Below are positions 620 to 13,547 of a DNA stretch of 13,547 bases, piece after piece (the first letter of the stretch is position 1; every line of letters starts with the position of its first letter). Under the pieces are notes generated by a model. That model was not told where the DNA came from. It searched no databases and saw only the letters and a program-made list of their open reading frames with translations. The DNA is from Burkholderiaceae bacterium (lineage in GTDB: Bacteria; Pseudomonadota; Gammaproteobacteria; Burkholderiales; Burkholderiaceae): positions 1-13,547 of the forward strand of contig CANISN010000022.1 in the NCBI GenBank assembly GCA_947470165.1. Direction: 5' to 3'. The translations under genes and the position numbers were made by a program.

Positions 620-1378
620 TTAGTCATACCAAGATGCTCCTAAATACCAATGATTCAGGCGGCCTTGGACTCTAGCGTTTTCAATGGCACTTCTTGTGCT
701 CTCAAATTGCTTTAAGACTACTTTATTAGGCTCATACAATTCACAGCCTGCTCGAATACGGTCCATTGCTGCCCCTGGTCGCACATTTTTAATGACTAGA
801 TCTATTGTTGTGGATCGTGACTTCAAGCGCTCAAAATAGCCAGAGTGCCAATATCGACCAACCTCCACTTCAGTAGCGCCTAAACGGAGATCAAGCAATA
901 CTCCATGGTCAGATATATCAATCACCTTAGTTAATAACTCCTGACCCGCGCCCAAGCAAAGCACAAAGCTCAAGTCCTCATCTCCGGGTCCGAGCGTTCG
1001 AAACTCTTTTCTGCGCTGCACTAAAATTAAATCAGCTGGTAAGGGGCATGTAATATTGCCGTCCTCAGTTAGCTTTAAGTTATTCGCTAAAAATTGCATC
1101 TTTCCAGAGTCTCCAGAAAGCACAGCGAGTCTTTGTCCACCAACCAAACTACTAAGCCCACCCTGGGGCTTGATTTCAGGCTTCATTAGTAACAGGCCTT
1201 CTGCAATATCAAGCAGCGTCACAGGCAACTCTCTTGCTGAGCCATCGATTGTGAATAGGCCGGCAAGTGGCTTTTTATGTATTTCGCGCTCAATTGTTTT
1301 AGCAATCGCACGTGCCTCCACATGAAATTTAGGCTCAATATTTTTAAGCGCTTCGGGAGGATAGATATTGAATTTCAT
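620..1378 (-). CDS. YcgR-like PilZ-domain protein (c-di-GMP receptor)
   Basis: This 252-residue soluble protein carries both PilZ signature motifs. An arginine motif, QRRKEFR (residues 121-127, R123 and R127 forming RxxxR), is followed about 27 residues later by DISDHG (154-159, the D-x-S-x-x-G motif). In PilZ proteins these residues wrap around a c-di-GMP dimer. The 120 residues before them match the layout of the N-terminal domain of YcgR-type proteins, which is a PilZ-like fold without the binding motifs. YcgR proteins link c-di-GMP to flagellar or surface behaviour, and the target here cannot be read from the sequence. An in-frame TTG at 1399 would add seven residues, but it overlaps the end of the upstream gene; the ATG at 1378 lies 8 bp after that gene's stop and is preferred. 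Transcription probably comes from the promoter near 1838. Confidence 0.82.
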   Translation of the reverse strand: MKFNIYPPEALKNIEPKFHVEARAIAKTIEREIHKKPLAGLFTIDGSARELPVTLLDIAEGLLLMKPEIKPQGGLSSLVGGQRLAVLSGDSGKMQFLANNLKLTEDGNITCPLPADLILVQRRKEFRTLGPGDEDLSFVLCLGAGQELLTKVIDISDHGVLLDLRLGATEVEVGRYWHSGYFERLKSRSTTIDLVIKNVRPGAAMDRIRAGCELYEPNKVVLKQFESTRSAIENARVQGRLNHWYLGASWYD

Positions 1379-1386
1379 AAAAAATA

Positions 1387-1809
1387 TTAAGGTGCACAAA
1401 CTTGGCTTTGCACAATTGCTAATGCGGAAGATTCTGGGACCGGATCGTCATTTAAATCAAAGCCTGTTTCCGTTTTCAGAATAGGTTTACCTACGGCCTG
1501 TGGCTCGGCATAATTCACGATTGCCAATGTTGAATACGTATTTCGGACGCAGTTAAACAGAATATTTCGGCGAACCGATACGATACGGGACTGTGAATGC
1601 TCATCTGCAGACTTTCGATCGATAAGGATCCAAACTTTTTTCCACTCGGGTGGCAAAGACTTAATTGAGCTTTTATAGTAAGCAACGGAGTACTGTTTCC
1701 CATCAAGCACCATTACCAAATCATCATTTCCTCGCGCAAAGGCAAGGCTAGTCCCAAGCAAACTGGCGAGGACTACATAAATGAATTTAGTGAACAAGTG
1801 CTTGCCCAT
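1387..1809 (-). CDS. Secreted surface-adhesin E-like protein (paralog 1)
   Basis: A 140-residue protein with a clear Sec signal peptide: lysines at 3 and 8, a hydrophobic core from about 9 to 24, and a probable cleavage after AFA at 25. The mature part (about 115 residues) is a small domain with two cysteines, one in FNCVRN and one at the very end (QVCAP), likely forming a disulfide. A Pro-Glu-Ser segment lies shortly before the final cysteine. This layout resembles the proteobacterial surface-adhesin E-like family, known mainly as small exported proteins of unclear role. The ATG at 1809 is preferred because a perfect TATAAT -10 box lies at 1838-1833, leaving a leader of about 17 bases. The ATG at 1821 would leave almost no leader, and the TTG at 1833 lies inside the promoter. 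It is the first gene of a likely operon with the PilZ gene. Confidence 0.75.
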   Translation of the reverse strand: MGKHLFTKFIYVVLASLLGTSLAFARGNDDLVMVLDGKQYSVAYYKSSIKSLPPEWKKVWILIDRKSADEHSQSRIVSVRRNILFNCVRNTYSTLAIVNYAEPQAVGKPILKTETGFDLNDDPVPESSALAIVQSQVCAP

Positions 1810-1832
1810 GGTGAAAACCATATAAATTGGCA

Positions 1833-1838
1833 ATTATA
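1833..1838 (-). promoter_or_regulatory. Perfect -10 box of the adhesin-E/PilZ operon
   Basis: The minus strand reads TATAAT at 1838-1833, a full match to the sigma-70 -10 consensus. No good TTGACA lies 16-18 bp upstream, so the -35 element is weak or an activator is used. Transcription would start near 1826, which rules out the in-frame TTG at 1833 and disfavors the ATG at 1821 as start codons. Confidence 0.5.
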
Positions 1839-1910
1839 CGGACAACTAGGGGGTAAAGGCACCCTACTTGGGATAGAAATTAAGCTCTGGCTCGTCTTCC
1901 TTTTAACCCA

Positions 1911-1932
1911 CTATCAAAGGGCAAGTTGATAG
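1911..1932. repeat. Inverted repeat CTATCAA...TTGATAG
   Basis: Perfect 7-bp inverted repeat (1911-1917 and 1926-1932) with an 8-nt spacer, between the stop of the 62-residue ORF and the promoter at 1838. No T-run follows on either strand, so it is not a classical terminator. It could be an operator or a weak transcript end. It lies about 75-95 bp upstream of the -10 box of the adhesin-E/PilZ operon. Confidence 0.35.
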
Positions 1933-1971
1933 CTGAATTCATCAATAATTAATAAGCGCGAAACCCTCCAT

Positions 1972-2160
1972 TTAGGCAGATGGGTTATCTACAGCACCGT
2001 TGCCAACTTGCTTAGGCATGGTCTCGCCCTTGATAACATGCTTGACCCAATAGCGTGCAGCAGCAATATTAGTCGTATAAAACGCAATTTTGCTACTTTT
2101 TTCGACAGTATAGAAACGGTCGCCACGAATGCGATGCTCGGTAATGACTGGATTTTCCAT
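1972..2160 (-). CDS. Small hypothetical protein, 62 residues
   Basis: The 62-codon frame starts with ATG at 2160. The product is basic in its first half, with several aromatic residues (FYTVEKSSKIAFYT), and ends in a polar tail (GNGAVDNPSA). It has no signal peptide, membrane helix or cysteine. A loose AAGAGA lies 12-13 bases before the ATG, so ribosome binding would be weak. I do not recognise the family. An overlapping open frame runs on the opposite strand (2008-2205), and one of the two must be a shadow. The minus frame is preferred because its residue pattern looks protein-like (alternating charged and aromatic residues, polar tail), whereas the opposite frame starts inside it. Transcription would run divergently from rpoN across the 261-bp spacer. 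Confidence 0.55.
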   Translation of the reverse strand: MENPVITEHRIRGDRFYTVEKSSKIAFYTTNIAAARYWVKHVIKGETMPKQVGNGAVDNPSA

Positions 2161-2421
2161 AATATGAAATGTCTCTTTTTTAACAGGTTAACTTATTACG
2201 GCTAAACAAGCCACCTTGATTAGGCTATTTTTATATTGCGATTGATTAATACCCAATAAAAACACTTAAGCCTTTAATTTATATAGGTATTTATACAGAA
2301 CTTATGGTTAGAATGGGGTTATGTATACCGAACTATACTTTTTGCAATTTAAGATTAAAGCATTAAAGCTAGATGGGCCTCACTGCAGCACCCCATCAAA
2401 TAGTCGTCACTAGACTCCAAA
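2161..2421. promoter_or_regulatory. AT-rich divergent spacer between the small ORF and rpoN
   Basis: This 261-bp spacer has no coding frame of note. It is very AT-rich from about 2215 to 2365 and must hold the rpoN promoter; TATACT (2334-2339) and TTAGAAT (2307-2313) are possible -10 boxes, but neither has a good -35. There is no Shine-Dalgarno motif directly before the rpoN ATG. Confidence 0.4.
2292..2335. repeat. Direct repeat TATACnGAACTnTA pair upstream of rpoN
   Basis: TATACAGAACT starts at 2292 and TATACCGAACT at 2324. Ten of eleven positions agree, and the copies are 32 bp apart, about three helical turns. Each copy is next to a small palindromic element (GTATTTATAC; GTATA-CCGAAC-TATAC). 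Such phased repeats can bind a regulator. They lie 87-130 bp before the rpoN ATG and could also serve the divergent small ORF. No regulator is identified. Confidence 0.4.
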
Positions 2422-3813
2422 ATGGCTATATCGCTTAACAATAGACTTAGTGCCCAAGTAAGCCTCACCCCGCAACTTCAGCAGGCAATCAAATTACTGC
2501 AACTATCAAATCATGAGCTAGAGCAAGAATTAGCTAAAGCTGCGGAAGATAACCCGTTATTAGAGTTTGAGCCTAATCCTGAAATTGAGTCTAACCTCAA
2601 TCAATCTGGTGATCGTATCGAGCCTACCCAGAATACTTGGTCAAGCAGCACTATCTCAAGCCATGATGATGAGGAATGGGTGGAGCGATATGAACGGGTC
2701 GCTCATCAGCAAACCCTACTGGAGTATTTGGAGGAGCAAATTCATTTACTCAATATCCCCCCTCAAGAGCAATCTGTTCTTGCCTACCTAGCTGGATGCC
2801 TTGATGAGAGAGGCTACTTATTGGATGATCTTGAGTCCATTAATACCGAAATTGGGACTCAACTACTGGGTGGCAATCAGGGCTCTTTTGCCCTGATAGA
2901 GTCTGGGCTAAAAAAACTGCAGGTCCTCGACCCTCCCGGTATTGGAGCGCGCAATCTTGCCGAATGTCTATCATTGCAAATTGATCGTATTCTCAATGAG
3001 CACAAAAGCAATGTAGATGACTGGAGTCTCGCGAGGATCATCGTTAATACCCATTTAAATAAAGTGGGCTCAAAAGATTGGCTCAAGATAAAACAAGCCT
3101 GTGGTAAATCCCAAGCAGAAGTACTAAAGGCAGTTGAGTGTATACGTAGCTTGCAACATAATCCTGGTGCCCAGTTTGAGCGTCAGCAGGATCAATGGGT
3201 CTTACCTGACGTCACGGTCAAAGCAAAGCATGGGCAATGGGTAGTAGAGTCCAATCCGAGTGCTAAACCACGCATTTCACTGAACAATGAATACGCCAGA
3301 ATTCTGAAGGAGAATGGGCAAAAGAAAGCAGATGGTGCATTAAAGCAAAAAATGCTTGAGGCTAGCTGGATGGTCAAAAATATTGCGCAGCGTGAAGAGA
3401 CTATTCTCAAGGTTGCCCAAGAAATCGTTGCTCGTCAGCAAAAATTCTTTTCAATGGGTGCAGTTGGAATGAGACCCCTTGTACTTCGAGAGATCGCTGA
3501 AAGTTTGAGCATGCATGAATCCACTATTTCTCGCGTGACGACTCAAAAATACCTCTCATGCCCGCTCGGAATTTACGAATTTAAATACTTTTTCAGTAGC
3601 CAGCTAAGCTCAGAAAAAGGTGGGGCCATTTCTTCAACAGCGGTACAAGCCCTAATTAAGCAAATTGTAGAAAACGAGCCGGCTAAAAAACCAATCTCCG
3701 ATACCAATATTGCAAAACTATTGAGTGATCAAGGTTATGTCATTGCCAGGAGAACGGTAGCAAAGTATCGAGAGGCGCTGCGTATCCCAGCAGTACACCT
3801 GCGCAAGGATTAA
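2422..3813 (+). CDS. rpoN: RNA polymerase sigma-54 factor RpoN
   Basis: The 463-residue protein has the full sigma-54 plan. Region I (residues 1-50) is glutamine/leucine-rich (LTPQLQQAIKLLQLSNHELE) and is where enhancer-binding AAA+ activators act. An acidic linker (about 50-85) follows, then the core-binding domain (about 90-280, with DPPGIGARNL), a helix-turn-helix near 350-377 (LREIAESLSMHESTISRV) and the RpoN box ARRTVAKYRE at 442-451, which reads the -24 element. It is close to the E. coli length (477), the linker being shorter. It directs RNA polymerase to -24/-12 promoters of nitrogen, motility, pilus or envelope genes. The ATG at 2422 lacks a clear ribosome-binding site, but the protein starts exactly where region I should. 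In many proteobacteria rpoN sits next to lptB and hpf; here neither is adjacent. It converges on the diguanylate cyclase gene with 10 bp between them. Confidence 0.96.
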   Translation: MAISLNNRLSAQVSLTPQLQQAIKLLQLSNHELEQELAKAAEDNPLLEFEPNPEIESNLNQSGDRIEPTQNTWSSSTISSHDDEEWVERYERVAHQQTLLEYLEEQIHLLNIPPQEQSVLAYLAGCLDERGYLLDDLESINTEIGTQLLGGNQGSFALIESGLKKLQVLDPPGIGARNLAECLSLQIDRILNEHKSNVDDWSLARIIVNTHLNKVGSKDWLKIKQACGKSQAEVLKAVECIRSLQHNPGAQFERQQDQWVLPDVTVKAKHGQWVVESNPSAKPRISLNNEYARILKENGQKKADGALKQKMLEASWMVKNIAQREETILKVAQEIVARQQKFFSMGAVGMRPLVLREIAESLSMHESTISRVTTQKYLSCPLGIYEFKYFFSSQLSSEKGGAISSTAVQALIKQIVENEPAKKPISDTNIAKLLSDQGYVIARRTVAKYREALRIPAVHLRKD

Positions 3814-3823
3814 ACTTAACTAA

Positions 3824-4567
3824 TTAGATTTCATGTAAATATTGGATACTGTTTTTGCCAGATTTTTTTGCCAAATACATTGCTTGATCAGCCTGATTAA
3901 TCAAATCTGTCACCGGTAATTTTTCATCAGCGGTGAGTGCAACACCGATGCTTGCGCCTAAAAATAATCGCATTGGATGATCTGGCTTCAGTTGCAGGGG
4001 TGTGGCAATAATTCCATGCAATCGAGTGGCCAATTGCATTGCTAAATCTCTAGTGTGGACGTCCTCAAAGAGCACAATAAACTCATCGCCCCCCCAGCGA
4101 ACCGCTAAGTCGTTTGGCCTAATGGCCGCCAAGATACGCGCACCAATCTCAGTCAATACCTGATCTCCGATTGCATGCCCATGCTGATCATTAATCTCTT
4201 TAAAGTCATCTAGATCAATAAAGCAGATAGCCAGTCCATTTTGCTTGCCCTCCGCTGAGAGGCCCTCTTGAGCAAGTCGATCTAAGAGGCTTGAACGTGT
4301 CAGCAATCCTGTTAGCTCATCCCTATTCCCAATAGAGGCATGATCAGTACTCCCCAGAAATCCCATCAGCAGTCTTCGCTGGGAAGTAGTCAAGCTAGAG
4401 TCCTGCATTAAGAATGTAGTTAATGCCTGACGATTCGAAGCTTGTAACACTTGTTGCAATTGAGTCAAGAGAATCTTTAATTGCACGCCAGCAAATTCCG
4501 AATTATGGGTGATTGCATCTTGCCCTTCAGGCAAAGAACTGTTTTTGATTAAAGCCACTCCTGGCAT
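3824..4567 (-). CDS. Diguanylate cyclase, GGDEF domain with intact inhibitory site
   Basis: A 247-residue protein predicted to make c-di-GMP from two GTP. The catalytic half (about 83-245) shows DELTGLLTR at 83, FIDLDDFKEIND at 117 (metal-binding aspartates), WGGDEF with GGDEF at 159-163, and SIGVA at 206. RPND at 150-153 lies five residues before GGDEF and forms the RxxD product-inhibition site. There is no EAL domain and no membrane helix. The N-terminal 80 residues are helical and may dimerise or sense a signal; I do not recognise them as a named domain. An in-frame TTG at 4576 would add three residues; the ATG at 4567 is chosen. It begins 15 bp after the adhesin-E-like gene, so it is co-transcribed with two envelope genes and may supply c-di-GMP for a local output. 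Confidence 0.92.
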   Translation of the reverse strand: MPGVALIKNSSLPEGQDAITHNSEFAGVQLKILLTQLQQVLQASNRQALTTFLMQDSSLTTSQRRLLMGFLGSTDHASIGNRDELTGLLTRSSLLDRLAQEGLSAEGKQNGLAICFIDLDDFKEINDQHGHAIGDQVLTEIGARILAAIRPNDLAVRWGGDEFIVLFEDVHTRDLAMQLATRLHGIIATPLQLKPDHPMRLFLGASIGVALTADEKLPVTDLINQADQAMYLAKKSGKNSIQYLHEI

Positions 4568-4582
4568 TGCTGCCAACTGAAA

Positions 4583-5071
4583 TTATTTACAGATAAGGTA
4601 CTTAACATCAGCCTCAACACTGTCGGAATCAATGGGCAATGGATTGGATTTATTTTTCTCAAAATAAACTTCCTTGAGAGCCCCCGCCTTAGCATCGAAG
4701 AACATATAGGATGTGCGGTAGTAAAAAGAGGAGTTTTCCTTACAATCCACGGCGCCGCTAACACTGAATAAGTTAAATGACTTACCGTCGGGGGAAATTT
4801 GATCTTTATTAAAGTGTGCGGAGACGGTGAACCACATGTAGGGACCTTCAGCCTTACCCCAACCAGAGAGTAAGTACAGTGTTTTTTCGGCATTCTTACC
4901 TAGCACCATATCTTTGTCATTAGCAATCTTAGTTGCGGCCTTAGTATCAGCAGACTTGGCATAAGCAGAGCCCTGATCAGGCTTTGCAGAAGCATCAAAA
5001 GTTAATCCAAACAAGGTGAAGGTAAGACTAACGACAATAAAGGGCTTACGTTTGAGGAAAAAATGACTCAC
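4583..5071 (-). CDS. Secreted surface-adhesin E-like protein (paralog 2), GTG start
   Basis: A 162-residue exported protein. The start is GTG at 5071: GGAGG sits six bases upstream, and the codon overlaps the stop of the preceding gene as GTGA, a classic coupled start. The longer frame from the ATG at 5104 has no such support and would put 11 odd residues before the signal peptide. That peptide has KRK at 7-9, a hydrophobic core from 11 to 25 and probable cleavage after ASA at 29. The mature protein has two cysteines, in VDCKEN and in the C-terminal YLICK, with a Pro-Ile-Asp-Ser segment before the second, the same layout as the protein at 1387-1809. The two look like distant paralogs of the adhesin-E-like family. 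It lies between an envelope protein gene and the diguanylate cyclase gene. Confidence 0.8.
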   Translation of the reverse strand: MSHFFLKRKPFIVVSLTFTLFGLTFDASAKPDQGSAYAKSADTKAATKIANDKDMVLGKNAEKTLYLLSGWGKAEGPYMWFTVSAHFNKDQISPDGKSFNLFSVSGAVDCKENSSFYYRTSYMFFDAKAGALKEVYFEKNKSNPLPIDSDSVEADVKYLICK

Positions 5072-5643
5072 TTCGACCCTCCCGCAAGCGGATTTACAGC
5101 CCATCCCTTAAATGCAGGCGGTACCGCCTCACCCTCAGCAAGGCCAAAGTAAGTCGGTTTGCCAGCCTCAACGATCCCCGCATAAATACGTCCTTTAGCA
5201 GGATCGATCACATATGCAGCTTGCGAGACAGCGCACGCCAACTTTTGACATCCTGAGCCAAAAATTTGTGAGCCTACGTAAACTAGAGGATAAGCTTCAT
5301 CAAGGGCGGCAATAAATTTTGGGTAACTACCACCCAGTAAATACTGAAAGAGGGGCTCATTGGCCCCACGCTTTACAAAGTTCAACGAAGAACTACCAAC
5401 AACTAAGGGTGAATAGGTGGCTAAATGCTTAGTTAAATTGGCAAAATTCTCACTTTGTTGAATTTTCAATGTCTTAGCAGCCTGCTGCTGATCTGACTCT
5501 TCTTTGTATTCCCAACCTTTGAAAGCAAGATAAAGGAGTACCAAAGCAGCTAATGCATACATCAAGAGTTTGGCAATTTTTTTTGCTAATAACGCTACTT
5601 GATTTACTATCATCTGCGGTTTGATATCCATGCTGCTAGTCAT
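5068..5643 (-). CDS. Membrane-anchored envelope protein, possibly Ivy-like
   Basis: From the ATG at 5643 the product has 191 residues. A basic stretch (KKIAK) precedes one hydrophobic helix at about 25-42 (LLMYALAALVLLYLAF), so the rest should be periplasmic. The C-terminal part contains CQKLAC (C132-x4-C137), then YVIDPAKGRIYAGIV, a glycine-rich turn, and VPPAFKGWAV. A CxxxxC loop followed by a beta-rich segment recalls the CKPHDC loop of Ivy-type lysozyme inhibitors, but the similarity is faint and the family assignment is a suggestion only. The frame also runs upstream to a GTG at 5721, giving 217 residues, and an ATG at 5631 is possible; no start has a good ribosome-binding site. It is the first gene of an operon with the second adhesin-E-like gene (4-bp overlap) and the diguanylate cyclase gene. 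Confidence 0.7.
   Translation of the reverse strand: MTSSMDIKPQMIVNQVALLAKKIAKLLMYALAALVLLYLAFKGWEYKEESDQQQAAKTLKIQQSENFANLTKHLATYSPLVVGSSSLNFVKRGANEPLFQYLLGGSYPKFIAALDEAYPLVYVGSQIFGSGCQKLACAVSQAAYVIDPAKGRIYAGIVEAGKPTYFGLAEGEAVPPAFKGWAVNPLAGGSK
5077..5083 (-). promoter_or_regulatory. Ribosome-binding site that fixes the GTG start at 5071
   Basis: The minus strand reads GGGAGGG at 5083-5077, followed by six bases and GTG. The site lies inside the last codons of the upstream gene, whose TGA overlaps the GTG. This implies translational coupling and decides against the ATG at 5104. Confidence 0.75.
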
Positions 5644-5745
5644 ATTGAACTGGCGATTATTCACATTTAGGCCATTAAGCTTGCCTAGCACCACTATAAA
5701 GCAAATCTTTGGTTTTTCCACTAATTAGCTAGTCTGAGTCAAGAT

Positions 5746-5775
5746 TTGCAATAAACTATATTTATTGGCTAAATT
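5746..5775 (+). promoter_or_regulatory. Candidate promoter of the 5830 gene
   Basis: TTGCAA at 5746-5751 and TAAATT at 5770-5775 are spaced 18 bp apart; each matches the sigma-70 hexamers at four of six positions. The spacer contains a small inverted repeat (CAATAAA-CTATA-TTTATTG). The elements are modest, but the position 55-85 bp before the start codon is sensible. Confidence 0.3.
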
Positions 5776-5829
5776 ATCGACGAGCTTTAGGCTTCAAACC
5801 GTTAGCACAAACATTATTTTGAGGTAATT

Positions 5830-6102
5830 ATGGACAATTTAGAAGACGCAATTAAAGAGCTAAAAGCAATTAACGCTCACTTAACTGAAATTAGCGCCAA
5901 TCTTCAACAAAGGGATCGCAAATCCGATGAAAGCCTAAATGTCATCAGAAAAGATCTGTGGAATATTAAAAACATCGTTGCAGATGAAGGTATTCAGAAT
6001 AGAATTGTACAAAAGGGAGTAGAAAAGGCTCTAGCAAAAGGCTTGGGGTATCTCTTAATTTTTGGACTGATGCTGTATGTTATTGGTAAATTTTTTCTAT
6101 AA
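5830..6102 (+). CDS. Small tail-anchored coiled-coil protein, 90 residues
   Basis: GAGGT five bases before the ATG makes this start well supported. Residues 1-40 carry hydrophobic residues in a heptad-like pattern (LEDAIKELKAINAHLTEIS) and probably form a coiled coil. Residues 41-68 are charged. A single hydrophobic helix at about 71-89 (LGYLLIFGLMLYVIGKFF) ends the protein, so it should be tail-anchored with its body in the cytoplasm. The size and plan occur in many unrelated small membrane proteins, and I do not recognise a family. The next gene starts 28 bp downstream and encodes another protein anchored near its C-terminus, so the two may work together. Confidence 0.8.
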   Translation: MDNLEDAIKELKAINAHLTEISANLQQRDRKSDESLNVIRKDLWNIKNIVADEGIQNRIVQKGVEKALAKGLGYLLIFGLMLYVIGKFFL

Positions 6103-6130
6103 GCGGCTAAGTACTCCATCGAATAAATCT

Positions 6131-6499
6131 ATGATGACTCCTGAATTAACTGATCGCCAAAAACGCTATGTTCACATTGCGAAGTCTCTAGAATCTGCAA
6201 GTAAAGAGTATGAGAATGCTGCGCTTGGGCTAGCGCAAGCAAGGAGCGAAGAGGAAGTCTATAGGCATATTAAAAAAGCGAATGCGGCTGTTGAGTCTGC
6301 CTTCCCAGAGCTGTTTGCTCCGTCAAAACCCATCACTCCCCCGCAGGCAGCAAGGGACTATACGATCATAAAGATCATTGTTATTGCCGTCCTAGTTTTA
6401 GGATTGCTGTATGCGTTTGTTGTATTTGGGCCAACAGGTGATCTTAGTAAAACCTGGATAACTGAAGACTTCCAAAAGAACATTGCCTACCCAAAATAA
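6131..6499 (+). CDS. Small membrane protein with N-terminal helical domain, 122 residues
   Basis: Starting at the ATG doublet at 6131/6134, the product has an alpha-helical, charged N-terminal domain (residues 1-62, with KSLESASKEYENAALGLAQA), a proline-rich linker (65-72), one membrane helix at about 78-99 and a 23-residue polar tail. The frame is open back to 6077 and would overlap the upstream gene by 26 bp, but that extension reads unlike a natural N-terminus. There is no good ribosome-binding site, so translation may depend on the gene before it. I do not recognise the family. The helical cytoplasmic part and single anchor parallel the 90-residue neighbour. Confidence 0.72.
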   Translation: MMTPELTDRQKRYVHIAKSLESASKEYENAALGLAQARSEEEVYRHIKKANAAVESAFPELFAPSKPITPPQAARDYTIIKIIVIAVLVLGLLYAFVVFGPTGDLSKTWITEDFQKNIAYPK

Positions 6500-6623: not shown

Positions 6624-7097
6624 TTAATAACCATCCGTTTTTTGCATTGGCAATACATTATTGAGGAGCTCATCACCCTCCTGCTCGCCTACTAATTGAT
6701 CTAATACATCTGAAAGTAAGCACTTTAAATTGCCATTCACCTTAGCATCCGGATGAACATTAATTTGTGAATAAGTAACATCCCCATTAACTATGGCGCC
6801 AGGATAAATTTCAACGCGTCCTTTTGCATAAACCGAGCCCTCGATACGACCAATAATGATGGCATGGGAACTATGAATATTGCCCTCTAGAAACCCTGTC
6901 TTGCTAACCACCGCGGTGTAACCCTCTTTAGATTCAGCAGAGTCCTCTTCTTGATAAATATCCCCAACTAGGTGGCCAGATAAAAAGAGGTTTCCGCGAT
7001 GAGTAACATCGCCCTTAACCGAAGATCCACTACCAATTGTGCTTGCATAACTGAGTTGTGTATCGGCCATAGGGCCTTTTTTTGAAAACTCGAACAT
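6624..7097 (-). CDS. Bactofilin 1
   Basis: A 157-residue bactofilin, a polymer-forming cytoskeletal protein built on a right-handed beta-helix. The core (about 19-125) shows the family repeats: IGSGSSVKGDV at 21, LSGHLVGDI at 39, FLEGNI at 69, IIGRIEGSVYAKGRVEIYPGAIVNGDVTY from 81 (given in pieces: GRIEGSV, GRVEIYPGA, VNGDVTY) and AKVNGNL at 118. A loop of about ten acidic and polar residues (EEDSAESKEG, 50-59) interrupts the helix, which is unusual. The N-terminus MFEFSKKGPM has the short aromatic/lysine motif often linked to membrane binding in bactofilins. The C-terminus is a 30-residue acidic tail. GAGGTG lies five bases before the ATG. It follows the RodZ-like gene with 37 bp between them, so both are probably one transcript. 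Confidence 0.9.
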   Translation of the reverse strand: MFEFSKKGPMADTQLSYASTIGSGSSVKGDVTHRGNLFLSGHLVGDIYQEEDSAESKEGYTAVVSKTGFLEGNIHSSHAIIIGRIEGSVYAKGRVEIYPGAIVNGDVTYSQINVHPDAKVNGNLKCLLSDVLDQLVGEQEGDELLNNVLPMQKTDGY

Positions 7098-7102
7098 TTC
7101 AA

Positions 7103-7108
7103 CACCTC
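7103..7108 (-). promoter_or_regulatory. Ribosome-binding site of bactofilin 1
   Basis: The minus strand reads GAGGTG at 7108-7103, five bases before ATG at 7097. It lies in the 37-bp gap after the RodZ-like gene and is among the strongest sites in the window, consistent with a highly made structural protein. Confidence 0.65.
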
Positions 7109-7134
7109 AAAAAATGAGCTCGCACAATAGCGGA

Positions 7135-8154
7135 CTATAAAATAACTTCTACCAACTTGATCTGTTTTGATCCTGCGCTAGGAAGTCGAACCTTCCAACC
7201 CTGAAAATACATTTCTGCATTATCTAAATCTTGTCCAAGAACAGTAAATGGCGCCACCCCCTTAAAAACATGTGCAGTATTAGCCTCCATGCCAACAACC
7301 AACTGCTTGCCACTCGCATCAATAAAACAGATCGTTTGTTTAATTAATGTTTTTAAATTAACAACATCACCTGCTTTTGAGGGACTTGGAGATTGATAAC
7401 TAAATATTTGCCCTTCTGGCTTAAAGGGGCACTGACCTGGAGCGAGCGGTACTTCGGCTGACTTTACCTCAGGACTTACGGCAGGCTCATTTGGCATTTC
7501 TATCTTACTCCCCTCAGCCCCATCCTTAGTCAATTGTGCAGGGGAATTCTCCTGAGTTGCGAGCTTACGATCCATTAGGGATGACAGCTGATAAGTAAGC
7601 TCATACTTTTCATTGAGGCCATAAAAAGTTCCGGCAATGACTAAGCCGATAAGCAGATAGAAAACTGGCTTTGGCGGGAGCTTGGATACATAACTAGACT
7701 CTGGCCCAGAAACAACTCCACCGACTTTTTCTGTAAGCAACTCCTGCCACTCTAGACGCTCTGTGATGGCAGAATCTAGCGGGCTAGTCAAAGGCTTTCC
7801 TTGTGGGGATGACAAATTTGCCTCTGGGCTTGTTACGTCAAGTCCATCTTCACTTTTTACCCCATCTAACAAGACCTCTTCAAGACCCTCTTTACTCTCA
7901 ATAGCGGACTGCGGATAGGATAAATACTCCGATTCAGAAAGATTTAATGATTTACCAACCCGTTTCGCAGCATTAATTTTGAGTGGAAAATTATAGAAAG
8001 AAGTCATGCCCCCCTCCTCCAACTCCAAAATCATCTTTGCGGACAAGCAGCATAAGTTGGCTAGCTCTAAGCGCTCGAGCTTCCTGGCCTCTCTTGCTGT
8101 TTTGAGTGCTGATCCAATCACATCTGGCAAGGGGCTATTCATTACTGGTGACAT
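7135..8154 (-). CDS. RodZ-like membrane protein (HTH, one TM helix, DUF4115-like C-terminus)
   Basis: A 339-residue bitopic protein with RodZ architecture. Residues 11-73 form the RodZ-type helix-turn-helix (IGSALKTAREARKLERLELA, then LELEEGG); in RodZ this domain touches the actin-like MreB. The usual tyrosine-rich end of that domain (VYxRGFLRxYA) is replaced by FPLKINAAKRVGKSLNL. A 90-residue acidic linker leads to a membrane helix at about 163-181 (PVFYLLIGLVIAGTFYGL). A periplasmic linker ends in a RodZ C-terminal-type beta domain (264-336: ICFIDASGKQLVVGME, then FKGVAPFTVLG). AAGGA sits 10 bases before the ATG at 8154; ATG 8142 is an alternative. True rodZ usually neighbours ispG, which is absent here, so this is probably a paralog recruited to the bactofilin gene that follows it. 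Confidence 0.8.
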   Translation of the reverse strand: MSPVMNSPLPDVIGSALKTAREARKLERLELANLCCLSAKMILELEEGGMTSFYNFPLKINAAKRVGKSLNLSESEYLSYPQSAIESKEGLEEVLLDGVKSEDGLDVTSPEANLSSPQGKPLTSPLDSAITERLEWQELLTEKVGGVVSGPESSYVSKLPPKPVFYLLIGLVIAGTFYGLNEKYELTYQLSSLMDRKLATQENSPAQLTKDGAEGSKIEMPNEPAVSPEVKSAEVPLAPGQCPFKPEGQIFSYQSPSPSKAGDVVNLKTLIKQTICFIDASGKQLVVGMEANTAHVFKGVAPFTVLGQDLDNAEMYFQGWKVRLPSAGSKQIKLVEVIL

Positions 8155-8279
8155 GCGATTGATATCCTTAGTTTACTGCACCGCAACAAATAAGTAGGGT
8201 ATATAAATTTGTATTATTTTCACAATCTTTTTATATTGAGCAATATTATCACTACACAGTTGATTTATTAAGTCCCCAT

Positions 8280-8309
8280 TTGTCTCAAATCCATGCTGAA
8301 TGTTAAAAT
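8280..8309 (+). promoter_or_regulatory. Sigma-70-type promoter of the 8360 gene
   Basis: TTGTCT (8280-8285) and TAAAAT (8304-8309) are 18 bp apart, matching the consensus hexamers at four and five of six positions. The start point would be near 8316, leaving a 44-base leader to the ATG at 8360. The promoter faces away from the RodZ-like gene in the 205-bp divergent spacer. Confidence 0.5.
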
Positions 8310-8359
8310 AGCATTGTTCGCCGGATAAACCCATGCAAACTTAGGATTAAATACACAAA

Positions 8360-8713
8360 ATGCAGCTCATTTGGATTTCAGGGTCGACCTCGACCATGAA
8401 GCAAATCAAAATCACTGGCAGAACGATGATTAAGATCGCCTTGCTATCTTTTAGCGCATTTATCCTATTTGGGATTGGTATCCATTTCTTGGGCTTTAGA
8501 GTGGCTATTCGATTTAGCCCCGAGATGACTAAGGAAATGGGTGGCGTCATCACTCGCAAGGAGATGGATGAAGTTGAGGCACACTATCGCGAGAATCTTC
8601 AGTTACTTCAGCAGCAAGTCCCCCTCATTGAGAGCAAGATTGATTCCCTGAAAAACTTGAAGGATCAGTTCTCTGAATTATCCACCCCCACCACCACAAA
8701 AAATAAGCCCTAA
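8360..8713 (+). CDS. Small bitopic membrane protein with C-terminal coiled coil
   Basis: The open frame gives 117 residues from the ATG at 8360, or 105 from the in-frame ATG at 8396, which would place the basic stretch MKQIKITGR directly before the membrane helix. Neither start has an ideally spaced ribosome-binding site (AGGA 13 bases before the first, AGGG 12 before the second). The hydrophobic helix (IALLSFSAFILFGIGIHFLG) spans about residues 25-44 of the long form. The remaining 70 residues are charged and predicted to form a coiled coil (EVEAHYRENLQLLQQQVPLI, then IDSLKNLKDQFSEL), likely periplasmic, followed by a threonine/proline-rich end. I do not recognise the family. It is divergent from the RodZ-like gene and upstream of bactofilin 2, so it may be an anchor or adaptor of that cytoskeleton. 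Confidence 0.7.
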   Translation: MQLIWISGSTSTMKQIKITGRTMIKIALLSFSAFILFGIGIHFLGFRVAIRFSPEMTKEMGGVITRKEMDEVEAHYRENLQLLQQQVPLIESKIDSLKNLKDQFSELSTPTTTKNKP

Positions 8714-8728
8714 TATAGGGCATTTTGC
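8707..8728 (+). terminator. Weak hairpin terminator after the 8360 gene
   Basis: GCCCTA (8707-8712) pairs with TAGGGC (8716-8721) around a 3-nt loop, followed by ATTTTG. The stem contains the stop codon of the gene. The short T-run makes it a weak terminator that may allow partial read-through into bactofilin 2. Confidence 0.5.
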
Positions 8729-8801
8729 TAGTTCAACACCCTCATATACAAACGATATTGTTATATTATTGGTTCATATTTAATACTTTAGGAAATTCGA
8801 T

Positions 8802-9206
8802 ATGAATGACAATAATCCAAAAGGCTCACTTTTTGTAGGCGAGGGGGTCGTTGTGAAGGGTACTTTTGAGGTTCCCGAGATGGCGGTTGTTGCTGGTTTA
8901 GTAGAAGGCGAACTTAATACCAAAGAAGTGCTAGTAGATACGACTGGAATTGTGAATGGTCGAATCAATGCAGAAGTTGTAGAGATTCGCGGTGAAGTCA
9001 CCCAAGGACTTCATGTAACCAATCACCTGAATGTTCGTTCCAGCGCCAAAATTACCGGCCTGACACAGTACGCTGAAATGAGCGTTGAAAAAGGCGCCAA
9101 ACTGAGCGGTGAATTAAGAGTAATTGATTCTGCTCCAGCTGCTTCAGGCTACTCCACATCTTCAGCGCAAAGTTATCAAAGCTCAGATCCTAGTGATGAT
9201 GAGTAA
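8802..9206 (+). CDS. Bactofilin 2
   Basis: A 134-residue bactofilin. The beta-helix core (about 9-108) carries the spaced glycine/hydrophobic repeats FVGEGVVVKGTFEV, VAGLVEGEL, GIVNGRI, VEIRGEVTQGL and AKLSGEL. It is shorter than the other two copies and has no N-terminal aromatic/lysine motif, starting MNDNNPKGSL instead, so it may not bind the membrane by itself. The C-terminus (about 110-134) is a low-complexity serine-rich tail ending in DPSDDE. The ATG has AGGA eight bases upstream. It is the only bactofilin on the plus strand and ends at a strong bidirectional terminator. Bactofilins form non-polar filaments without nucleotide and scaffold cell-wall enzymes, stalks or polar complexes; the partner here is not known. 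Confidence 0.87.
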   Translation: MNDNNPKGSLFVGEGVVVKGTFEVPEMAVVAGLVEGELNTKEVLVDTTGIVNGRINAEVVEIRGEVTQGLHVTNHLNVRSSAKITGLTQYAEMSVEKGAKLSGELRVIDSAPAASGYSTSSAQSYQSSDPSDDE

Positions 9207-9219
9207 GTTCTAGATCTCC

Positions 9220-9259
9220 AAAAAAATACCCCTAGTAGAGATATTAGGGGTATTTTTTT
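9220..9259. terminator. Perfect bidirectional intrinsic terminator
   Basis: A 15-bp perfect inverted repeat (9220-9234 and 9245-9259) with a 10-nt loop. The stem core TACCCCTA/TAGGGGTA is flanked by seven A on one side and seven T on the other, so it works on both strands. It separates bactofilin 2 (plus) from the 293-residue gene (minus), whose stop codon is only two bases away. Confidence 0.9.
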
Positions 9260-9261
9260 GT

Positions 9262-10143
9262 TTAGGAATTCACAGCAGGTTTATCGCCCATCGCATTCAT
9301 CATGGATAACATTTGAAAATAAGGCGGGGGAGGGTCATTAAATTCTGAATTATCAAACGCGGTAATTCTGGTCTTATCTATGGCCTTAAAAATTTCAGAA
9401 TCAAATTGAATACCTCTTGGGGCCTCATCCAATCTATATCCATTCGCATCTATTTTAGAAATCATTTTGACCACCTCAGCTCGTCCAGATTGAACTTTCA
9501 CAATCCAAACATCGGTATAGCCAGTCGTATCCCTAAAGAGAGTCCAGCGTCCCCAACTGACATCATCATCTTGCATGTATGAATCTTGCTCCAACACCTT
9601 TAGAACACTTCCGCTGTACTTGAAAGAAGCTGATAACACCTCATTAATATCGTTCATAAAATAATGGATTTTTGTCAGATCATCAAATTTGGGTATTTCT
9701 AATTGAGCCAGGTTTTGCTCATATTTTTTAAGAGACTTGACGCACCGATCTACCCTTAACTTGGGATCAAGCTCGACATTCTCAACTGGATCTAATTGCA
9801 AGGTCTCTTCAAGCGCCTGGGCTGCTTGCGAGTGAATAGATGAGAAAATAAATAAGGACTCAGGACTGATGCCGAAAGTATTAAACCAATATTTTTCAAT
9901 CTCCAATCCGGCTTGTGCTAACTGAGCATGCAGAAGGTCATCGTTTGGAAACTCTGTTTCGCAAGCATATAACCGATCCACTAAGCGGCTTGAACTGCCG
10001 TTAGCCTCTAGGATGTTTGCATGCCAGAAATTTTGAAAGCTATCGTATTTAAATCTCTCACAATAGAATTGGAAAACACATTGGTCAAATTGCAATTGAC
10101 CCATAGACGATGGCCCACCCTTTTTAAAATCAAATAAGCCCAT
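9262..10143 (-). CDS. Unknown 293-residue protein with a bactofilin-like N-terminal motif
   Basis: The ATG at 10143 is preceded by GAGGA at nine bases, so the start is firm. The protein is soluble, acidic, rich in aromatic residues and without signal peptide, membrane helix or a motif I know. The first half looks helical (LVDRLYACETEFPNDDLLHA, QAAQALEETLQLDP). The second half contains WGRWTLFRDTTGYTDVWIVKV (188-217 region; WGRW at 197-200), which looks like beta strands, and ends with a PPPP stretch at 271-274 and a methionine-rich tail (MLSMMNAMG). Its start, MGLFDFKKGGPSSM, resembles that of bactofilin 1, MFEFSKKGPM: aromatic residues, KKG, then P and M. It follows bactofilin 3 with about 50 bp between them. 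It may be a bactofilin client or regulator, but no function can be assigned. Confidence 0.85.
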   Translation of the reverse strand: MGLFDFKKGGPSSMGQLQFDQCVFQFYCERFKYDSFQNFWHANILEANGSSSRLVDRLYACETEFPNDDLLHAQLAQAGLEIEKYWFNTFGISPESLFIFSSIHSQAAQALEETLQLDPVENVELDPKLRVDRCVKSLKKYEQNLAQLEIPKFDDLTKIHYFMNDINEVLSASFKYSGSVLKVLEQDSYMQDDDVSWGRWTLFRDTTGYTDVWIVKVQSGRAEVVKMISKIDANGYRLDEAPRGIQFDSEIFKAIDKTRITAFDNSEFNDPPPPYFQMLSMMNAMGDKPAVNS

Positions 10144-10193
10144 TACTACTCATCCTCGACAATCAATTAATTTAAAGCGCCTACAAAGGCAAA

Positions 10194-10646
10194 TTATGTG
10201 CTTTTGATTTTGCTCCAATTAGCCTGAAAAATGGCTGCTGAATCAGTGTTCCCCTCAGGCTCCTCGCCATTTCTGGATATCATGAGGCCATTTAACTTAG
10301 CACCATGCTCAATTCCAAGCTGGCCATAAGTAATATCGCCACGCACTTCTGCGCCTTCATGTAATTCAACTCGTTCAGTGGCGTAAATATTACCCTCAAC
10401 TCGCCCTGCAACTAGCACTCTAAATGCATAGATATCGCCCTGCACAACACCCGTTCTCCCAAGAGCAATACTGACGCTTTTGCCTTGACGTGCTTCGATA
10501 TTGCCAATTACGCGACCGTCAATTCGCAGACTCTCATTAGCAACTAATCTTCCATGCACCTCGGTGGCGGGTCCCACGATCGTCTCAAAAGACTCCATGG
10601 TGGGCTGCAAGAATTTAATAGATTGTGATTTTTTGAATATCTGCAC
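10194..10646 (-). CDS. Bactofilin 3
   Basis: A bactofilin with the most canonical core of the three. From the preferred start it has 150 residues; in that numbering the beta-helix repeats are TIVGPATEVHGRL at 22, SLRIDGRVIGNIEA at 39, GVVQGDIYAFRVLVAGRVEGNI from 66, VELHEGAEVRGDITY at 93 and AKLNGL at 115. A polar tail of about 25 residues follows. The GTG at 10646 is preferred: AAAAGGA lies six bases upstream, and it yields the N-terminus (M)QIFKKSQSIKF, close to the aromatic/lysine membrane motif of bactofilins. The ATG at 10664 would add six residues (MSKGKQ) and has no ribosome-binding site. The gene has its own promoter (10689-10719) and leads into the 293-residue gene. Function is inferred as a filament scaffold at the inner membrane. 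Confidence 0.9.
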   Translation of the reverse strand: MQIFKKSQSIKFLQPTMESFETIVGPATEVHGRLVANESLRIDGRVIGNIEARQGKSVSIALGRTGVVQGDIYAFRVLVAGRVEGNIYATERVELHEGAEVRGDITYGQLGIEHGAKLNGLMISRNGEEPEGNTDSAAIFQANWSKIKST

Positions 10647-10652
10647 TTGTTT

Positions 10653-10659
10653 TCCTTTT
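10653..10659 (-). promoter_or_regulatory. Ribosome-binding site supporting GTG start of bactofilin 3
   Basis: The minus strand reads AAAAGGA at 10659-10653, six bases before GTG at 10646. It overlaps codons 2-4 of the longer frame from the ATG at 10664, which itself has no such site. Confidence 0.55.
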
Positions 10660-10688
10660 GACATCAGGCATATGCTGGGCGGGGGTCT

Positions 10689-10719
10689 ATTCTAGCGTGA
10701 TTTGGTCTTCTTCTGACAA
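10689..10719 (-). promoter_or_regulatory. Promoter of bactofilin 3
   Basis: On the minus strand TTGTCA (10719-10714) and TAGAAT (10694-10689) each match the consensus at five of six positions. The spacer is 19 bp, slightly long. Transcription would start near 10682, giving a leader of about 36 bases to the GTG. Confidence 0.5.
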
Positions 10720-10742: not shown

Positions 10743-10762
10743 GCACTTAAGTTAGCAAGTGC
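10743..10762. repeat. Inverted repeat GCACTT...AAGTGC
   Basis: A 6-bp perfect inverted repeat with an 8-nt spacer, 24 bp upstream of the -35 box of bactofilin 3. On the minus strand it is followed by a short TTAATTTG. It may be an operator or a remnant terminator of whatever lies between 10816 and 11112. Confidence 0.3.
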
Positions 10763-10815
10763 AAACTTTATTAGGCCTTAATGCATACAGATAGAGATGG
10801 GGCCACTGCGATGAT

Positions 10816-11155: not shown

Positions 11156-13547
11156 TTAACGAGCAATGCAAGCACTTTGTTGAGTCTGCAAGCTATGCGC
11201 CATTTGCAACAGTTCAGCCAAATGCTTTACCTTCCGACCGGTCTCCTGTTCAATCTGCTCACGACAGCTAAAGCCATTGGTGAGAATGATAGTTTCTTGC
11301 TCGGCTGCGCGAATGGCTGGGAGTAGCACTAATTCGCCCACTGCTTTTGATATTCCTACATGCTCGGGATTAAATCCAAATGAGCCGGCCATGCCGCAAC
11401 AGCCGCTATCGATATAATTGGCCTTCGCTCCCAAAGCGGTGAGAAGCGCGACATCGCCCTTTGTGCCAAACAAAGACTTCTGATGACAGTGGGAGTGAAC
11501 CAAGATATTGCAATCTAGAGGGGGTGGCACATAACCCTGCTCATGCAAGAAATCGCCCAGCAAATAACTACTAGATGACAACAACTTCGCCCTTGGATCA
11601 TGAGGGAAGAACTTTAATAGCTCATCCTTAAATACGGACATACATCCCGGCTCAAGACCAACCACGGCAATAGGAGAGCCATCATCCGCAGAAATCTGAT
11701 CTCCAAGCGCATCCAAAATTTTCTCAAGCTTTTGTTTAGCGAGGTCAAGATAGCCGAAGTCATATAAAGGACGTCCGCAACACAAAGGGGTTTTCGGCAA
11801 GGTGGCTTCAAATCCTGCATGAGCAAGTACTTCTACCGCTGCATTTGCCACTTCTGGATGAAAGTGCTCGCAGAAAGTATCTACCCAAAGAATGACTTTT
11901 TTCTGTCCTACACCAGTAGTTGCAGATTGCTTGAACTGCTTTCTGAAGGATGAGCTAGCAAACTTAGGCAGGCTACGCTCTTGCGCTACACCACCAAGCC
12001 ATTTAGCAACACTAGCTAACACGGGGGTTTCCATTACCCCATTGATTAACCAGGCAAACTTGCTAGCTAGTGGCGCCCAATCACCAATGCGCCCCATAGT
12101 GAGGGCCTGACGGGGTCGACTATTTATTTCATGATAGTGTGACAAAAACTCCGCTTTATATGAAGCCATGTCGACGTGGGCTGGACAATCACTTTTACAG
12201 CCTTTGCAGGAGAGACAGGTATCAAGCGCTTCTTTAAGCTCCTTACTTTCCCAACCATCCTTAATCACCTCGCCTTGTAGCATTTCCCAGAAGAGTCGTG
12301 AGCGGCCACGAGTAGAGAAGCGTTCTTCCTTAGTAGCGCGATAGCTTGGACACATCGTGCCCACTTTTTCACTTCGACACTTACCCATACCAACACAGCG
12401 CTCAACCGCTCTTTGGAAACCATTACCTTCTTGACTCAAGAAATTGAGCCGAGTTTTGATATTGACGACCTTATATTCTGGACCCATGCGTAGGTTTTCA
12501 TCTACACGATAAGGGTGCACAACCTTACCCGGGTTGAGCTTATTTTGTGGATCCCAAATACGCTTGAACTCATGCATCGCGCCCATCAACTCTTCGCCAA
12601 ACATAATAGGCAAGAACTCAGCTCTAGCTTGACCGTCACCATGCTCACCAGTGAGTGATCCTCCAAACGCGACAACTAAGGTTGCGGCATCCCGAATAAA
12701 GGATCTAAATTTAGTAACGCCTTCTGCAGTACGTAAATTAAAAGTGATACGCGCATGAATGCAGCCATCACCAAAGTGGCCATAAAGTGAAGTTTCATAT
12801 TCATAAGAGTCTACTAGCGCCTGGAAGGCTCGCAGGTACTCACCCAAGCGGGCGGGATCCACTGCCGCATCTTCCCAACCCACCACGGGATCAGGAAAAT
12901 TAGGATCAATCGACAGATGGGTAGCCGATGCGCCATTTTCTCGAATCGACCAAATACGCTTTTGTACCAGCGGATCAGACTCAAGCCAAGTTGATGGTTG
13001 AGGACCTTTGGTTCTCGCTTTAAAGTACTGCTCTGCTTTTTGAGCCTGAGCTACCGCACCCTCTAGAGTATCGTCTCCAAACTCTACGACTACCCAAGCG
13101 TTTCCAGGTGGTAATAGATCAATTTCAGCTTTAGCTAAATTCCGCTGTTGCAAACCTCGAATAATTTTGTAATCCAAGCCTTCGATTGCAATGGGATTAA
13201 AGGATTGATATTCGGGTACGGCATCGCCTGCTACATAAATATCCTCAAAACCTAATACCAATACCACGCGCTTTGCAGGACTCTTTACCAATCGTACTTT
13301 GGCAGCGAGTGTTAATGCACAAGTCCCCTCTGTTCCTACTAAGGCCTTGGCAACGTTAAAGCCATTCTCCGGCAAGAGTTGATCTAAGTTGTATCCCGAG
13401 ACACGGCGCTTGATATTTGGAAAGCGGGCACGAATCTGTTCCGCATAGCGATCACGTAAAGTCAGCAAATCTTGATAGATTTGTCCTTTACGACCACCAG
13501 CAGCAATGATTTCTGCTAACTCTAAATCAGATGTTGGACCAACCCAA
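11156..13547 (-). CDS. FAD-linked oxidase fused to Fe-S/CCG domains, D-2-hydroxyacid dehydrogenase type (5'-truncated)
   Basis: The frame is open to the window end, so the N-terminus is missing; 796 residues are visible (first WVGPTSDLELAEI). An in-frame TTG at 13468 is not the start. The first half is the end of the FAD-binding domain (VSGYNLDQLL, VGTEGTCALT) and the FAD-oxidase C domain (YGHFGDGCIHARI and GEHGDGQARAEF). Two 4Fe-4S motifs follow: CVGMGKCRSEKVGTMCPSY near 384 and CLSCKGCKSDCP near 445. Two CCG domains end the protein (LCCGRP near 587, SGCCGMAG near 715), which in GlpC/GlcF-like subunits bind further clusters. This single-chain plan matches YdiJ-like enzymes that oxidise D-lactate or D-2-hydroxyglutarate and pass electrons to an acceptor. 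The substrate cannot be fixed from sequence. No neighbour points to its pathway. Confidence 0.93.
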   Translation of the reverse strand, partial: WVGPTSDLELAEIIAAGGRKGQIYQDLLTLRDRYAEQIRARFPNIKRRVSGYNLDQLLPENGFNVAKALVGTEGTCALTLAAKVRLVKSPAKRVVLVLGFEDIYVAGDAVPEYQSFNPIAIEGLDYKIIRGLQQRNLAKAEIDLLPPGNAWVVVEFGDDTLEGAVAQAQKAEQYFKARTKGPQPSTWLESDPLVQKRIWSIRENGASATHLSIDPNFPDPVVGWEDAAVDPARLGEYLRAFQALVDSYEYETSLYGHFGDGCIHARITFNLRTAEGVTKFRSFIRDAATLVVAFGGSLTGEHGDGQARAEFLPIMFGEELMGAMHEFKRIWDPQNKLNPGKVVHPYRVDENLRMGPEYKVVNIKTRLNFLSQEGNGFQRAVERCVGMGKCRSEKVGTMCPSYRATKEERFSTRGRSRLFWEMLQGEVIKDGWESKELKEALDTCLSCKGCKSDCPAHVDMASYKAEFLSHYHEINSRPRQALTMGRIGDWAPLASKFAWLINGVMETPVLASVAKWLGGVAQERSLPKFASSSFRKQFKQSATTGVGQKKVILWVDTFCEHFHPEVANAAVEVLAHAGFEATLPKTPLCCGRPLYDFGYLDLAKQKLEKILDALGDQISADDGSPIAVVGLEPGCMSVFKDELLKFFPHDPRAKLLSSSSYLLGDFLHEQGYVPPPLDCNILVHSHCHQKSLFGTKGDVALLTALGAKANYIDSGCCGMAGSFGFNPEHVGISKAVGELVLLPAIRAAEQETIILTNGFSCREQIEQETGRKVKHLAELLQMAHSLQTQQSACIAR

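Follow-up and report, generated by a model that had tools for sequence, protein, structure and literature searches.

A conserved Polynucleobacter locus of three bactofilins, a RodZ-type paralogue and a putative peptidase-less M23 tether at the edge of a flagellar island

The closest described counterparts of the locus treated here are RodZ, the adaptor of MreB, and several bactofilin systems, the latter taken from parts of the papers cited. The locus (locus 1, Table 1) comprises three bactofilin genes (bacA, bacB and bacC), a gene for a RodZ-like protein and the genes cc117 and u293. It lies in a stretch of 13,547 nt (contig CANISN010000022.1 of GCA_947470165.1, our contig C22), in its whole length referred to as the window, which belongs to a Polynucleobacter metagenome-assembled genome (MAG; assembly of 1.8 Mb, 82% complete). 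RodZ and the locus protein are alike in their architecture of helix-turn-helix (HTH), transmembrane (TM) helix and periplasmic part, and paralogues in G002 and G032 (our own genome is coded G000, the others Gnnn) pass the RodZ_C cut-off; the locus protein, in contrast, stays below both Pfam cut-offs and sits among bactofilins. Csd2 of Helicobacter pylori is a full-length M23-type protein. In the H. pylori set CcmA-Csd1/Csd2/Csd5/Csd7 a bactofilin likewise stands with a peptidoglycan hydrolase, its non-enzymatic homologue and non-enzymatic membrane proteins, whereas in cc117 the whole M23 domain is lost, and a RodZ-type partner is not named in the part of the source covered (PMC9507126). BacA-LmdC of Hyphomonas neptunium and Rhodospirillum rubrum (PMC10945521) resembles our case in the N-terminal region of cc117, and a second Polynucleobacter locus (locus 2) also has the M23 domain; locus 1, in contrast, is without this domain, contains three bactofilins, a RodZ-type protein and u293, and adjoins flagellar genes. 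BacE and BacF of Bacillus subtilis are likewise linked to flagella (PMC4627819, PMC9103452), but these are two bactofilins of a Gram-positive organism with a link known from mutants, whereas the link here consists of gene position and co-occurrence only. BacNOP of Myxococcus xanthus also are three bactofilins, and with ParABS they have, like locus 2, a ParA-type gene next to bactofilins; their function is chromosome segregation, however, and locus 1 is without ParA (PMC5703909). A literature search found no paper joining Polynucleobacter and bactofilin, the one paper found that joins bactofilin with a flagellar gene cluster concerns Enterobacter treated with pressure, and neither a RodZ-like gene in a bactofilin locus nor an M23 partner without its domain is described in the parts covered of PMC10945521, PMC12448750, PMC4627819 and PMC9103452, a selection from a wider bactofilin literature. 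Our reading, held at a probability of about 0.45, is that locus 1 encodes a bactofilin scaffold without hydrolytic activity, held at the membrane by two anchors, which would belong to the adjoining flagellar island and serve the placement or assembly of flagella.

Locus 1 is a conserved unit. Among 101 Polynucleobacter genomes, 78 of them good, 17 carry an orthologue of the RodZ-like protein (defined by an HTH match with E below 1e-22), and in 17/17 the order and strands bacA+, [u293+], bacC-, cc117-, rodZ-like+, bacB+ are kept, which excludes a chance assembly. The gene u293 is absent from the locus in G012, G031, G083 and G097. Of ten loci on GTDB contigs, several of which are the same contigs as in the Gnnn genomes, nine agree in this order and one starts within rodZ-like; cultured species with the locus include P. 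hallstattensis and P. bastaniensis. Homologues of u293 occur in 15/101 genomes, 13 of them at locus 1 and two (G093 and G078, ~40% identity) 3-4 kb from another bactofilin. All homologues of the RodZ-like and 293-aa proteins that bear organism names are from Polynucleobacter. The genes beyond bacA, followed outwards for up to 4.5 kb, differ among the 17 copies and form eight groups; bacA is hence the edge of the conserved block. An earlier, sequence-only reading of the DNA had placed three bactofilins, an HTH-membrane protein of RodZ type, a small membrane/coiled-coil protein and a 293-residue protein within 6624-10664, and the corresponding open reading frames (ORFs) are all there. It had further asked whether the RodZ-like and 293-residue genes occur mostly away from bactofilins. 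They do not, as 17/17 RodZ-like orthologues stand in locus order and 15/15 u293 genes within ~4 kb of a bactofilin, and its proposal of a single unit holds.

That the three bactofilins are clearly different, also stated there, agrees with identities of 31% between BacA and BacB and 28% between BacA and BacC, and with the lack of an alignment between BacB and BacC at E 1e-3. All three proteins exceed the curated cut-off of PF04519 (66.9-84.5 bits against 27.9). The likely start of bacA is a GTG at 10646, which is preceded by AAAGGA; its orthologues mostly have 149-150 amino acids (aa). Judged by eye, the N-termini of BacB (MFEFSKKG) and of BacA from this start (MQIFKKSQS) contain phenylalanine and lysines and resemble the membrane-targeting peptide MFSKQAKS of Caulobacter BacA (PMC12448750, in part), a pattern that the N-terminus of BacC (MNDNNPKG) does not show. 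Of 200 sampled genomes of the order, 132 had bactofilins, mostly one or two each, and our own genome has the highest count among these, nine; within the genus, G031 has ten.

Table 1 Features of locus 1 and its surroundings in the window (dN/dS, ratio of nonsynonymous to synonymous substitution rates)
Feature	Position	Strand	Evidence or remark
Island side: two small membrane proteins, two unknown genes, GGDEF protein, rpoN (2422-3813+), PilZ-like gene	620..6499		sigma54 domains in window protein
bacB, bactofilin, N-terminus MFEFSKKG	6624..7097	-	PF04519 8.6e-20; dN/dS 0.060
rodZ-like, 339 aa: HTH, TM ~163-181, C-terminal domain, cysteines C242 and C276	7135..8154	-	sub-threshold HTH_25 and RodZ_C; orthologues
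Divergent intergenic region, rodZ-like/cc117	8155..8359		length 189-236 bp in the 20 loci examined; sequence poorly conserved
cc117, 117 aa: cytoplasmic peptide, TM ~23-44, coiled coil; catalytic domain absent	8360..8713	+	homology to M23 protein; dN/dS 0.038
bacC, bactofilin without obvious N-terminal membrane-targeting peptide	8802..9206	+	PF04519 2e-18; dN/dS 0.057
u293, 293 aa, downstream of bacA, probably cytoplasmic (no TM segment)	9262..10143	-	in 13/17 locus copies; dN/dS 0.091
bacA, bactofilin	10194..10664	-	PF04519 6.4e-24; dN/dS 0.036; 89-95% identical to orthologues
TAGAAT, possible -10 box of bacA	10689..10694	-	seen in 15/17 locus copies, at most 300 bp from the start used
Imperfect palindrome AAGTTAGTNNNNACTAACTT upstream of bacA	10749..10768		3 mismatches; 0.06 expected in window
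FAD-linked oxidase/Fe-S protein, outer flank, outside conserved block	11156..13468	-	PF02913 5e-42

Residues 1-116 of cc117 are 37% identical to a 311-aa M23 protein of our own genome (L041:7629-8564, contig C45, beside bactofilins), which matches PF01551 at 2.2e-34. In an alignment of 35 different sequences, cc117 shares with the full M23 proteins a cytoplasmic peptide of the type MQLIWISGST, the TM helix with the block behind it, and the coiled coil as far as the motif L(A/S)TP. It ends shortly after this motif and covers the first third of a full-length M23 peptidase; a Pfam search with its 117 aa gave no match to an M23 domain. By homology and alignment, cc117 is the N-terminal part of a bactofilin-linked M23 peptidase and has lost the catalytic domain. 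The earlier statement that an M23 peptidase is missing was literally right, and the unit had been recognised, but the identity of the small protein had been overlooked, as had the flagellar island. Among the proteins compared, the full-length one nearest to cc117 is encoded beside a bacA-type gene in the flagellin-less G064 (L078). A split gene, with the catalytic domain encoded nearby, was considered and rejected: in the eight complete locus-1 genomes searched the nearest M23 domain lies at least ~63 kb away, at locus 2, and in our own genome none was found on contig C22.

The length of cc117 is 115-122 aa in 23/25 fetched copies, the remaining two being listed with 150 aa because the ORF caller chose an earlier start. 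Its median dN/dS is on par with that of rpoN (0.043), which indicates strong purifying selection. All dN/dS values are medians of 24-52 pairs per gene (0.05<dS<1.5) drawn from 25 loci, and the pairs are not independent because some of these loci are the same contig fetched twice. With its enzyme-defining domain gone, cc117 might be taken for a decaying pseudogene in a loose neighbourhood of genes without joint function; this is contradicted by the selection result and the near-constant length as well as by the fixed order in 17 genomes, and is scarcely credible. In Hyphomonas, BacA is bound by the N-terminal residues 1-38 of LmdC; in Rhodospirillum, a reporter made by fusion to residues 1-80 (the cytoplasmic portion with the TM helix) served to follow co-localisation with BacA (PMC10945521, in part). 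Since the region corresponding to the LmdC N-terminus is kept, the M23 domain gone and selection strong, cc117 looks like a membrane tether for bactofilin that would not cut the wall. G093 encodes, at another place (L108:1949-2320), a further M23-type N-terminus of 123 aa that lacks the catalytic domain and has no Pfam match, and that adjoins an ilvD-like gene; a similar-looking place in G010 (L057:5750-6688) holds a full-length protein, and the G093 protein possibly represents an independent loss of the M23 domain.

Locus 1 is the outer end of a flagellar/chemotaxis island. Among the genes on its bacB side, rpoN is present in 16/17 and the GGDEF gene in 15/17 loci (the contig of G075 ends early), and the G010 homologues of the island-side genes show GGDEF and sub-threshold PilZ matches. 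The bacB side in G010 carries small membrane proteins, GGDEF, rpoN, PilZ-like and CheW-like genes (PilZ and CheW below the Pfam cut-off) and then the flagellar genes flgA, flgM, flgN, fliA, an SRP54-type GTPase (flhF by position), flhA, flagellin, fliD, a sigma54 activator, fliF, fliM, motB and flhB; the flagellar genes were confirmed with Pfam and the genes in between recognised by eye. Past flhB follows locus 2 (L063), with a full M23 protein, three bactofilins and a ParA-type protein, which is also found in G012, G089, G104 and G123. In our own genome this set, with a ParA-type ATPase, lies at L041:4372-8564 on contig C45. Judged by their identities (bacA 61%, bacC 48%, cc117 37%), the two loci are paralogous. 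Flagellin lies between them in 12/12 testable genomes, i.e. those with all parts on one contig (G010, G012, G031, G083, G085, G089, G097, G103, G104, G112, G120 and G123); in the other 5/17 the parts are spread over several contigs. Other lineages have a RodZ-like gene and three bactofilins, in another arrangement, beside motB, namely G114 (L072, Pfam) and G029 (L107, MotB by eye). Between rpoN and the PilZ-like gene of the window lies an ORF of 62 aa (1972-2160, minus strand, MENPVITEHRIRG...) that recurs in several relatives and resembles, by eye, a small ORF near a bactofilin of G093 (L196:1096-1341).

Bactofilins occur in 53/101 genomes of the genus, at 222 places, and flagellin in 37/101. 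Both were found in 31 genomes, flagellin only in 6, bactofilin only in 22 and neither in 42 (Fisher p 1.4e-6; the p-values given here take no account of kinship, and missing sequence may lie behind absences in incomplete genomes). Genomes with flagellin have a mean of 4.5 bactofilins and those without 0.9, and 21 of the 22 genomes with at least six bactofilins have flagellin, the exception being G065. Flagellin is present in 17/17 genomes with the RodZ-like protein of locus 1 and in 20/84 others (p 2e-9). The gene order, the flagellin of all locus-1 genomes, its position between the loci in 12/12, this co-occurrence, the loci beside motB and the kept, selected N-terminal region of cc117 are the grounds for the flagellar reading. 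According to it, the bactofilins would polymerise under the inner membrane, and two bitopic proteins, cc117 and the RodZ-type HTH-TM protein, would tie the polymer to the envelope; cc117 would keep the bactofilin-binding part of an LmdC-type M23 peptidase and be unable to cut the wall, and u293 may be an accessory cytoplasmic subunit. The scaffold might mark or stiffen a site of the envelope, most likely for flagellum placement or maturation of the export apparatus, and locus 2 at the island's opposite end, with its three bactofilins, full M23 protein and ParA-type ATPase, may supply a wall-cutting version. For B. subtilis, bactofilins have been reported as necessary for hook and filament assembly (PMC4627819, in part).

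Several points weigh against the flagellar reading. Other strains of B. subtilis show a mild motility defect or none (PMC9103452, in part). Of the 64 flagellin-less genomes 22 have bactofilins, six of the 37 flagellated ones have none, and G065 combines seven bactofilins with no flagellin. Three-bactofilin loci occur elsewhere in the flagellin-less G027 and G066, so that bactofilins in the genus are not only flagellar. The 17 locus-1 genomes may descend from a single gain, and a palindrome that bacA shares with flgB in some relatives (see below) was not seen at the flgB of our own genome and was degenerate or absent at that of the other relatives examined. The bactofilins of flagellin-less genomes, together with the full M23 peptidase of locus 2, would suit a cell-shape module, cell shape being the best-known role of bactofilin-M23 pairs (PMC10945521, in part). 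The scaffold would then set curvature or a growth zone like BacA-LmdC, with cc117 as a non-hydrolytic competitor or spacer for the M23 protein of locus 2, and the flagellar neighbourhood would come from motility and shape genes being inherited together. However, each of the 17 locus copies belongs to a flagellated genome, and all 12 testable ones flank flagellar genes; we regard this explanation as somewhat unlikely.

The RodZ-like protein reaches 15.3 bits with HTH_25 (cut-off 24.6) and 12.2 bits with RodZ_C (cut-off 23.9); a paralogue in G010 reaches 26.1 bits with HTH_25. Hydropathy alone places a single TM helix between HTH and C-terminal domain. The two cysteines C242 and C276, located after this helix, are invariant in an alignment of 47 RodZ-like proteins of the genus and a disulfide between them is possible. 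The median dN/dS of 0.176 is the highest among the locus genes. A RodZ-type HTH match was found in 97/101 genomes of the genus (78/78 good ones), and the locus protein is thus usually an extra paralogue; in our own MAG, 82% complete, it is the only RodZ-type copy found. A strong MreB match is present in 95/101 genomes, including our own (G000:C185), and a weak one (1e-15 to 1e-17) in the other six. The idea of the sequence-only reading that the protein acts in the place that MreB-RodZ would take is therefore not supported: with MreB present, MreB is not replaced, and an added second adaptor fits better than a replacement.

RodZ-type HTHs are repeatedly neighbours of bactofilins. Of 149 HTH matches in the genus, 36 have a listed bactofilin no more than 4 kb away, compared with ~1.4 expected, in a count that used 150 of the 222 bactofilin places. 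Seventeen of the 36 are locus 1, and two of the other 19 lie at 3.9-4.0 kb; HTH-only genes (75-88 aa), bactofilin-M23-RodZ-like sets (L102, L103) and a RodZ-like-bactofilin-M23 set (L101) are among them. Against such a link, 113/149 matches are not near a listed bactofilin, and L092, L105, L109 and L110, fetched for their HTH match, have none near. In a tree of 53 HTHs (84 columns, loci partly chosen for nearness to bactofilins), the bactofilin link needs six changes, at least four of them forced by well-supported branches, compared with 15.1 in shuffles; the bactofilin-linked HTHs are clustered, yet on several branches. Outside the genus, a RodZ-like protein beside bactofilins was found in 0/50 loci with a profile trained on Polynucleobacter, 30 of these loci reaching ~1.5 kb to each side and the other 20 being hand-chosen; the same type of M23 N-terminus occurs in 2/50 bactofilin loci (L159, L172). 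A small HU/IHF-like gene was seen by eye beside bactofilin or HTH-only genes in L093, L098 and L105.

Instead of structural adaptors, these HTH proteins could be membrane-bound or soluble XRE-type transcription regulators of the neighbouring bactofilin genes, with the HTH-only genes as local autoregulators. The latter have no room for a TM domain and are divergent to bactofilin genes in L091, L093, L098 and L104, and a comparison of the RodZ-like profile with PDB sequences retrieved XRE-type DNA-binding HTHs only, weakly (best E 0.0036). The conserved palindrome before bacA could be the type of site bound. In a form close to AAGTTAGTNNNNACTAACTT, it has at most 2 mismatches in 10/17 locus copies, at most 4 in 16/17 and 6 in G123. 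The palindrome of the window is weak when taken alone, an equally good one occurring in 10/200 shuffles. HTH and bactofilin genes are co-directional, on the other hand, in L096, L097 and L099-L103, the RodZ_C cut-off is passed by the paralogues in G002 and G032 (2/10 genomes), and palindrome counts per genome (0-5, 29 genomes) are similar to those of a reversed-pattern control (0-5), most other sites being at unrelated genes. A regulatory role of this kind appears quite improbable.

As rpoN is close and flgB has a perfect sigma54 promoter, such a promoter was sought for bacA; a scan of the window and of G010 found none in the intergenic stretch before the gene. The bacA-type palindrome starts 38 bp before the perfect flgB sigma54 promoter in G010, G089, G103, G090, G088 and G116 (L062:17493-17545 in G010, and L177-L181) and also precedes a bactofilin gene in G093 (L196); a match on C191 of our own genome falls inside flgB. 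As a signal of a flagellar regulon the palindrome was only partly borne out, the flgB sites being patchy and the counts close to the control, and it is retained as a lead. A small ORF upstream of bacA (10816-11112, minus strand), beginning with DKLNLQ, has homologues upstream of bacA in L084, L111 and L113, and another, without Pfam match, beside the M23 gene of locus 2 in our own genome (L041:8569-8835). The u293 protein had no significant match in Pfam, NCBIfam, PHROG or PDB, the best in PDB being no better than E 0.15.

A further reading sees in the two paralogous modules that bracket the island, one hydrolytic with M23 and ParA and one a pure scaffold, a dedicated flagellar cytoskeleton, in which a wall-cutter would have been turned into a tether and the HTH of a duplicated RodZ switched from MreB to bactofilin. 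We consider this unlikely; if true, RodZ-type HTH domains would be a general bactofilin-binding part in the genus. The locus itself is real, conserved and unusual: its parts are of known kinds, and new is their combination with an apparent peptidase-less M23 tether, a RodZ-type paralogue and a flagellar island. Under the flagellar reading, it would provide a case among Gram-negatives, in a genus of which strains are in culture, of the little-understood link between bactofilins and flagella reported for B. subtilis. It would also be a natural experiment in which the bactofilin-binding part of an M23 partner is separated from the enzyme activity, and it allows a test of whether filaments besides MreB can be served by RodZ-type HTH domains.

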